Shown: in pieces, positions 15,294 to 16,915 of the stretch
How positions within the stretch are numbered: the stretch's first letter is position 1
How the letters are laid out: the number at the start of each line of letters is the position of its first letter
Origin: Dysgonomonas sp. PH5-45
Lineage (GTDB): Bacteria; Bacteroidota; Bacteroidia; Bacteroidales; Dysgonomonadaceae
Length of the DNA: 64,000 nucleotides
NCBI RefSeq assembly: GCF_029893235.1
Contig: NZ_JARXWE010000014.1
Location: 1 to 64,000, forward strand
Direction of reading: 5' to 3'
Translations under genes and position numbers: made by a program
Notes under the pieces: generated by a model
The model's input: the letters and a program-made list of their open reading frames with translations, nothing else
What the model was told of the DNA's origin: nothing
Database searches by the model: none

Positions 15294-15320
15294 CGAAAAG
15301 ATGATTAGTACATCTTTTCG
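15294..15320 (-). terminator. Terminator spanning the ABC-F stop codon
   Basis: A perfect 10-base stem (15294-15303 with 15311-15320) with a 7-base loop; the stop codon (15305-15307) is in the loop. On the minus strand the stem is followed by TTTTATAAC. The last coding codons therefore form one arm of the terminator. Confidence 0.75.
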
Positions 15321-16915
15321 CGCTGTGCCTTTATTTCGTCCGAATGGATATAATCGTCATAATCCATCATTTTGTCTATTATGCCATTGGGTGTAAGTTC
15401 TATAATGCGGTTACAAACGGTCTGGATAAACTCATGGTCGTGCGAGGACATCAGTACATTTCCCTTAAACTGTTTCAGCGTATTATTGAAGGCCTGAATC
15501 GACTCCAAATCCAGATGGTTGGTAGGCGAGTCCAGAACATAAGTATTGGCATTCTTCATCATCATGCGGGCAATCATACAGCGCATTTTCTCTCCTCCCG
15601 AAAGTACACTCGCGCTTTTCAACACTTCCTCGCCCGAGAACAACATTCTGCCCAAAAAGCCTTTCAGATAAATCTCGCTTGTGTCGTCCGAAAACTGTGC
15701 CAGCCAATCGACCAAGTTCATGTCGGTATCGAAAAACTCCGAATTGTCGAGCGGAAGGTAAGCTTCTGTTATGGTTTGCCCCCAATCGTAAGTTCCACCA
15801 TCGGCTTTTATCTTGCCGTTAATGATTTCGAAAAAAGCCGTCATGGCACGGGGGTCTTTCGACAGGAAGATAATCTTATCGTCCTTTTCCACATTGAAAT
15901 TTACATTATCGAAAAGCACTTTCCCATCGACCGACTTACTCAAGCCCTTCACCTCAAGTATTTTGTTACCTGCCTCGCGCGAGGGGGTGAAGATAATGCC
16001 CGGATATTTACGCGACGATGCTTTTATCTCTTCAACGTTCAGTTTTTCGAGCATTTTTCGGCGGCTGGTGGCTTGTCTGGATTTTGCTACATTGGCGCTG
16101 AAACGGCGGATAAATTCTTCAAGTTCTTTCCGTTTTTCTTCGGCCTTTTTGTTCTGTTGCGATTGCTGACGCAATGCCAACTGGCTCGACTCGTACCAAA
16201 AACTATAATTGCCTGCAAAAAGGTTTATCTTTCCGTAGTCTATATCAATGATGTGCGTACAAACCGAATCCAAGAAGTGGCGGTCGTGCGAGACAACGAG
16301 TACCGTATTATCGAAGTTTGCCAAATAGTTTTCTAACCAGCTAACGGTTTCTATATCCAAGTCGTTGGTAGGCTCGTCGAGCAACAGGTTGTCTGGCTGT
16401 CCAAAAAGTGCCCTCGCAAGCAATATCCTTACCTTTTGCTTACCGCTCATCGCCGACATCAACCGGGTGTGCAACCCTGTTTCTATCCCCAAGCCGTTCA
16501 GTAGGCTTGCCGCATCGCTTTCGGCTGTCCATCCGCCAAGCTCGGCAAAGCGTTCTTCAAGCTCCGAGGCACGGATACCATCTTCTTCGCTGAAGTCTTC
16601 CTTTGCGTAGAGGGCATCTTTTTCGGTCATGATTTCCGATAGCGTTGTATGCCCTTGCAAAACGGTGTCGATCACGGTAAGTCCGTCGAAGGCAAAGTGG
16701 TCTTGCGACAAGACAGACATACGCTCGCCCGGATCCATCGAAAACGACCCACGGGTAGCGTCTTTCTCTCCGCTCAATATTTTCAGGAAAGTTGATTTCC
16801 CTGCACCGTTAGCACCTATTATACCATAGCAATTCCCGTTTGTGAATTTCAGATTCACATCCTGAAACAATATTCTTTTACCAAACTGAATACTTAAATT
16901 CGAAACTGTTATCAT
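15305..16915 (-). CDS. ABC-F family ATPase, YbiT-like, with a degenerate second site
   Basis: A 536-residue cytoplasmic protein with two ABC domains and no membrane segments, like the ABC-F factors that act on the ribosome. The first domain is intact: Walker [10 protein letters not shown] at 34-42, signature MSGKQ at 156-160, Walker B LLLDEP at 177-182 with the catalytic Glu181. A charged linker (about 245-300) follows. In the second domain the Walker A position (351-359) reads LSKDPRAMT, without the P-loop glycines and lysine, and the catalytic Glu is Ser463 (VLDSP); the signature LSGGE (438-442) is kept. Length and layout fit YbiT best. The substrate is unknown; an antibiotic-resistance role is not indicated. 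Confidence 0.85.

Follow-up and report, generated by a model that had tools for sequence, protein, structure and literature searches.

A clade of YkpA/YbiT-type ABC-F ATPases with one conserved and one degenerate composite ATP site

Among ABC-F ATPases of the YkpA/YbiT type, a clade of 192 distinct proteins from Bacteroidota, Bacillota and a few other groups combines a first ATP site, NBS-I, whose motifs are intact and nearly invariant, with a second site, NBS-II, whose aligned residues are degenerate throughout the clade and most deeply so in Bacteroidota. The member that served as starting point is encoded in a stretch of 64,000 nucleotides from Dysgonomonas sp. PH5-45 (the window). We consider it fairly probable that the proteins of the YkpA branch are housekeeping ABC-F translation factors operating with a single ATPase site and maintained under purifying selection.

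The gene of this YkpA/YbiT-type ABC-F ATPase (15305..16915, minus strand) starts with ATG and encodes 536 amino acids without an internal stop. Pfam analysis detected PF00005 in two stretches and PF12848 (ABC_tran_Xtn, 77.3 bits) at residues 223-305 (16001..16249, minus strand), the inter-domain linker or P-site-tRNA interaction motif (PtIM) region, in which many residues are invariant (alignment A2, 40 sequences). No transporter membrane domain was found, and the protein has the ABC-F architecture, i.e. two ABC domains in one chain, a linker and no membrane domain. From the family and the fold match we infer that it binds in the ribosomal E site. The best PDB match is E. coli YbiT (9njf_Y, E 9.2e-149). 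The match to profile NF011646 scored 608.9 bits, under the curated cut-off of 762 for the YbiT/YkpA subfamily, which was reached in none of the 61 genomes of the window's close relatives and by one of the five controls giving matches. We take NF011646 (PRK15064, "ABC-F family ATPase") to be the YbiT model, in agreement with E. coli as the sole control above the cut-off. In a tree the YbiT/YkpA subfamily forms a branch of 80 rows apart from other ABC-F proteins (SH-aLRT 99; quick tree, 8 outgroup rows, long-branch warnings on some). BdAF1 is a Bacteroidetes-only ABCF group (PMC6723617; this article, PMC7756269, PMC8782954 and PMC11381351 are cited throughout from excerpts); the YkpA-type clade is not confined to Bacteroidota. 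The gene neighbours code for an amino-acid-kinase family protein, a zinc-ribbon-like protein, a PDZ/DUF4136 protein and a lumazine-binding-domain protein, and a search of this neighbourhood for a functional link to the ABC-F gene found none. The zinc-ribbon-like protein (14004-15125, plus strand, 373 aa) carries an N-terminal zinc-ribbon-like stretch (PF13248, 19.3 bits, cut-off 27) and no other Pfam match.

In the ABC sandwich, each ATP site is composed of the Walker A, Walker B and Q-/H-loop of one nucleotide-binding domain (NBD) and the signature of the other NBD (PMC7756269); the labels NBS-I and NBS-II are taken from MtbEttA (PMC8782954). When the motifs (all on the minus strand) were sorted by this composite-site geometry, all losses fell into NBS-II and all NBS-I motifs were intact. 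NBS-I contains the NBD1 Walker A GANGAGKST (residues 34-42, 16790..16816; canonical in 190/190 clade rows having the stretch), Q-loop Gln71 (16703..16705; Gln in 191/191), Walker B Asp180-Glu181 in LLLDEPTN (16373..16378; each in 192/192) and H-switch His210 in SHDRH (16286..16288; 192/192), together with the NBD2 signature LSGGE (438-442, 15590..15604), read as VLSGGEK at 437-443. The Leu of this signature is L in 187 and I in 4 of 191 clade rows, and its S, G, G and E are invariant in 190-191 rows. Over all NBS-I residues (Walker A, Gln71, Asp180, Glu181, His210 and NBD2 SGGE), the only departure in 190-192 clade rows is one Walker A Ser-to-Thr. The NBS-II motifs are of another kind. The Walker A position of NBD2 reads SKDPRAMTA (352-360, 15836..15862; canonical in 0/188 clade rows), the Q-loop position is Leu389 in AYLPLDN (15749..15751; Gln in 5/191 clade rows and 62/62 YbiT-type rows), Walker B is Asp462-Ser463 with Ser replacing the catalytic Glu (15527..15532; Asp in 186/190 and Glu in 125/190 clade rows), and the contributing NBD1 signature is a clade-variable MSGKQ (156-160, 16436..16450). 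Residues kept at NBS-II are H-switch His492 (15440..15442; His in 151/190 clade rows) and the D-loop Asp469 (190/190). Two complete ATP sites, a usual though non-defining ABC-F trait, are not present; the protein has the pattern of a degenerate-site ABC ATPase, with the non-canonical motifs of both NBDs in one composite site and the other site complete. As read from the motifs, the unit lost is the composite site NBS-II and not a domain, as the odd NBD1 signature pairs with the Walker A that NBD2 has lost, and the LSGGE retained by NBD2 pairs with the intact NBD1 Walker A.

The original prediction had placed LSKDPRAMT (351-359) at the NBD2 Walker A and Ser463 at the catalytic Glu, with LSGGE retained in NBD2, and alignment with relatives bears out all three readings. 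It had also called the first ABC domain complete, which holds for the Walker A, Q-loop, Walker B and His but not for the signature, MSGKQ instead of LSGGQ; this and the loss of the NBD2 Q-loop Gln (Leu389) had both been missed. Sorting by domain had left the retained LSGGE isolated and had hidden the change in the NBD1 signature. Of its intact first site and dead second site, one intact and one degenerate site remain, which makes the protein asymmetric, but the division runs between composite sites and not between domains.

The spread of the change was counted in 277 rows left after dropping 33 duplicates, i.e. 192 YkpA-type, 62 YbiT-type and 23 other ABC-F proteins. The YkpA and YbiT types were split by identity to the window protein (at least 51.7% vs 36.5-44.0%, the gap between being empty), and the locus sample is biased toward the window protein's side because loci were found by similarity to it. 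A canonical NBD2 P-loop (GxxGxGK[ST]) occurs in 0/188 readable YkpA-type, 62/62 YbiT-type and 23/23 other ABC-F rows. Outside the 188 are L146 (frame broken, NBD2 missing) and L112, L133 and L293 (one-residue P-loop deletion); L166 was excluded from alignment A2 (stops in range) and included in the counts. L146 (G370:C41:3035-4644) is a YkpA-type gene in two frames in one Streptococcus uberis draft record. In Bacteroidota, 86 matches (E <= 1e-100) among 296 genomes were all read, giving 81 non-canonical and 5 canonical NBD2 P-loops; in Bacillota 33/33 matches were non-canonical (149 genomes, seed genome included), and in Pseudomonadota the 47 matches read, from 70 in 67/200 genomes, were all canonical. 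All 26 YkpA-type matches from the 61 close-relative genomes (window included) were non-canonical. A further 80 loci with organism names comprised 54 YkpA-type, 10 YbiT-type and 16 other proteins, and the named YkpA-type members come from Flavobacterium, Sphingobacterium, Pinibacter (Chitinophagaceae), Bacillus, Paenibacillus, Clostridium and Treponema. The change had been supposed to be common to Bacteroidales YbiT-like proteins; it is indeed clade-wide and no local decay, and the P-loop change reaches beyond Bacteroidales.

That the unusual P-loop reflects a sequencing or assembly error, a frameshift pair or a misalignment has practically no likelihood: nothing was found in its favour, all 188 readable relatives, from independent records, are non-canonical, and no displaced P-loop was detected that could account for it. 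A scan of the 192 clade proteins for a displaced P-loop ([GA]xxxxGK[ST]) gave the single NBD1 match in 184, none in two partial rows and two matches in six; in these six the second match is a near-canonical GPNSIGKTM at the expected place in two and lies elsewhere in four. Sequencing error was rejected on the clade-wide occurrence of the non-canonical NBD2 P-loop.

The five paralogues read in the window's genome (L002-L006) all have a canonical NBD2 P-loop. A compensating second, intact YbiT copy was sought with an intact YbiT as query; 84 Bacteroidota genomes matched (E <= 1e-120), each of them once, and no such copy was found. Four of the close relatives have two NF011646 matches each, and the two second matches read (L227 and L228) belong to other ABC-F proteins (29-30% identity), whose P-loops are canonical. 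Five of the 86 matching Bacteroidota genomes (G079, G133, G275, G280 and G283; families f29, f48 and f50) carry an intact YbiT instead of the degenerate type, and this intact YbiT groups in the tree near Acidobacteriota and a Chlamydiota sequence. Three Pseudomonadota genomes (G660, G680 and G700) have two YbiT-type genes each, and all six copies keep a canonical NBD2 P-loop.

The two sites differ in constraint as well. In sets thinned to 80% identity, the mean entropy of the six Walker A key columns is 0.02 bits for NBS-I and 1.91 bits for NBS-II in 86 YkpA-type sequences (all-column mean 1.23), and 0.04 and 0.14 bits, respectively, in 29 YbiT-type sequences (all-column mean 1.25). Among 11 close pairs, six were usable for dN/dS, none of them from the window's order, and gave 0.014-0.087 for the whole gene and 0.018-0.100 for NBD2 alone; synonymous sites were saturated in the other five, the three pairs of the window protein among them. 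These values indicate, as far as they go across relatives, that the protein is maintained while NBS-II has been freed from constraint. The gene is present in 26/61 close relatives (the window's genome included) and is therefore dispensable, and a patchy distribution of this kind is what neutral decay of a gene being lost in the window's lineage would produce. Such decay is nonetheless scarcely credible, given the full-length frame, the purifying selection in the six usable pairs of relatives, the near-invariance of NBS-I in up to 192 proteins of several phyla, and a deep origin on a single branch. Local decay was rejected, the NBD2 P-loop loss being clade-wide and NBS-I conserved. Within the window's order the former P-loop (residues 352-360, 15836-15862) fits S[KRH][DN]xRAM[TS] in 26/28 rows, and this conserved altered loop suggests a new structural role.

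The single origin comes from a tree of 88 chosen rows, built by a quick method with the NBS-II motif columns removed (long-branch warnings for L005, L006, L147, L149, L152 and L157). All 58 degenerate rows fall on a single branch (SH-aLRT 100) adjoining proteobacterial YbiT (96), with other intact YbiT outside. The number of changes needed on the tree is two for the sixth-position Gly, three for the Q-loop Gln, five for the fourth-position Gly, seven each for Lys and Glu, and eight each for His and the first Gly, which is consistent with the sixth Gly and the Q-loop Gln having been lost early and in common, and with scattered later changes. The tree alone cannot tell direction, and loss rather than gain is taken as the direction because the outgroups read are intact. 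The order of steps was probably as follows. The NBD1 signature would have eroded first, being already odd in most intact YbiT; the sixth-position P-loop Gly and the Q-loop Gln would have been lost next, close to where the YkpA clade arose; Lys and the remaining Gly residues would have followed later, and Glu would have been lost in the window's order and some Clostridia. In the intact YbiT-type proteins of Pseudomonadota (L141-L143, L150, L263-L292 and L296-L312) the NBD1 signature is mostly non-canonical, often V/I-A-P-G-W for LSGGQ.

The erosion is graded. Scored as departures at five key NBD2 P-loop positions (three Gly, Lys and Ser/Thr), the 188 clade rows comprise six with one departure, 32 with two, 30 with three, 112 with four and eight with five; in the window's order, each of the 28 readable rows has four departures. 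The six one-departure rows (L234, L235, L236, L244, L247 and L249) are all Bacillota and come from the set of 33 matches, and because their P-loop departs at one key position only, NBS-II may still hold nucleotide in them. The P-loop Lys is kept in 22/33 Bacillota matches of one sample, in 13/30 named Bacillota rows and in 5/10 same-phylum rows of other classes, and in 0/68 same-class and 0/28 same-order rows. Nearly all Bacillota members too are without the Q-loop Gln (kept in 5/191 clade rows). It follows from this gradient that the case for a dead NBS-II is strongest in the window's relatives and weakest in some Bacillota. Residue 463 behaves differently from the P-loop. Among the 27 rows of the window's order having the residue it is Ser in 16, Thr in 9, Asn in 1 and His in 1, never Glu, and in 190 rows clade-wide it is Glu in 125, Gln in 20, Ser in 17, Thr in 13, Asp in 6, His in 4, Gly in 2 and others in the rest. 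Since Glu is kept in 125/190 rows and absent from 27/27, Ser463 is an order-level trait added on an older P-loop change, and loss of Glu463 is a separate change that came later than the P-loop loss.

An AlphaFold2 model of the window protein (40 sequences; mean pLDDT 89.2, pTM 0.82), ligand-free like the other AlphaFold models used here, places in NBD1 a strand at 29-34 followed by a helix starting at the Walker Lys (40). In NBD2, the helix after the strand at 347-351 already starts at 355, three residues ahead of the Lys position 358 (block pLDDT 93). In a control model of the intact YbiT L150 (9 sequences, pLDDT 87.4) both helices start at Lys (40 and 357). Because the NBD2 helix starts early compared with three reference P-loops, the phosphate loop is predicted to be partly replaced by helix. 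In fold matching, the ATP-bound closed human ABCF1 5zxd leads (Z 31.3, rmsd 3.5, 435 residues), with ribosome-bound E. coli YbiT (9nlf, Z 30.7; 9njf, Z 30.4) within 1 Z of it, i.e. a tie, and PoxtA, VmlR2, EttA and YheS lower. E. coli YbiT (9njf, 9nlf) is like the window protein in architecture, linker, NBS-I motifs and non-canonical NBD1 signature, with 41% identity to 9njf in the structural alignment. The two differ at NBS-II, YbiT-type proteins having a canonical NBD2 Walker A, Q-loop and Glu in 62/62 rows and the window protein being without all three. The E. coli protein in the 9njf alignment keeps the NBD2 P-loop, and its Glu was engineered to Gln; the PDB titles of ribosome-bound YbiT mention hydrolytic and non-hydrolytic conformations.

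In MtbEttA on the ribosome the use of the two sites is asymmetric: nucleotide is engaged at NBS-I and at NBS-II one after the other during 30S rotation (PMC8782954). M. tuberculosis EttA shares the ABC-F fold with the window protein but has all motifs in both sites, whereas NBS-II of the window protein lacks them. A protein with NBS-I only cannot engage two sites in turn, and a one-ATP clamp is therefore proposed. In this scheme ATP would be hydrolysed only at NBS-I (NBD1 Walker A/B with the NBD2 LSGGE). With the phosphate loop replaced in the model by an extra helical turn, NBS-II of the window protein and its Bacteroidota kin probably grips no nucleotide and would serve the two NBDs as a fixed contact or hinge. 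Closure of the clamp in the ribosomal E site would take one ATP and allow the linker (PtIM) to reach and influence the P-site tRNA, and a single hydrolysis event would release the clamp, instead of the two-site cycle of EttA. We tentatively put forward, as a reading that may hold, that a multi-phylum ABC-F clade, to which B. subtilis YkpA probably belongs, needs only one ATP, that NBS-II was converted stepwise, furthest in Bacteroidota, into a permanent protein-protein hinge, and that the E-site clamp is set by one ATP-binding event and reset by one hydrolysis event.

ABC exporters with a degenerate composite site are a familiar class (PMC7756269). In the membrane transporters CFTR, MRP1, TAP and Pdr5, as in the window protein, the odd motifs of the two NBDs come together in a single composite site, as described with ABCC7 (PMC7756269). 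Pdr5 is nearest in extent (Lys to Cys, Glu to Asn, His to Tyr, and LNVEQ), with the difference that the P-loop Gly is also lost in the window protein; making the degenerate site of Pdr5 canonical abolished its activity (PMC7756269). MgATP affinity at the degenerate sites of such exporters is comparable, and these sites hold ATP over many cycles (PMC7756269). By analogy with CFTR, MRP1 and Pdr5, NBS-II could bind ATP without hydrolysis, as long-lived structural glue while NBS-I cycles. This is possible but rather unlikely for the clade, and more plausible for its Bacillota members, where six P-loops depart at one key position and many keep Lys; the retention, for the most part, of Asp462, Asp469 and His492 also speaks for it. 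In the window protein, however, the P-loop has none of the three Gly and no Lys, the model makes this loop helical, and the readable rows of the window's order without exception share four departures of five. Most degenerate exporters seem to keep their Walker A, which likewise counts against a nucleotide held at NBS-II.

YkpA of B. subtilis has been assigned to the YbiT subfamily (PMC6723617), and it is probably a member of the degenerate clade, because NF011646 has a match in B. subtilis, YkpA is equated with YbiT in that article and 33/33 Bacillota matches are YkpA-type. Loss of YkpA/YbiT in B. subtilis led to mild stalling on polylysine and polyglutamate reporters and to the strongest polyarginine stalling among the strains tested (PMC11381351). 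With half of the catalytic machinery gone, the protein might instead work off the ribosome in some other ATP-independent scaffold role. We regard this as highly improbable in view of the strong conservation of NBS-I and the linker region and of the effect of the probable B. subtilis member on ribosome stalling at charged motifs (PMC11381351).

A search of the open-licence PubMed Central literature found no report of a degenerate site in YkpA/YbiT or any other ABC-F protein, and the excerpts of PMC11381351 and PMC6723617 do not mention NBS-II loss for YkpA. That both ATP sites work is taken for granted in models of ABC-F function and in the double Glu-to-Gln (EQ2) trap, an assumption that may not hold for the YkpA branch; if B. 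subtilis YkpA belongs to the clade, trapping should depend on the NBD1 Glu only. Natural intermediates are supplied by the gradient of erosion, which rises from Bacillota to Bacteroidota, and a large natural clade in which one site is near-invariant and the other eroded offers a ready-made test of whether one ATP lets an ABC-F protein bind, remodel and leave the ribosome.
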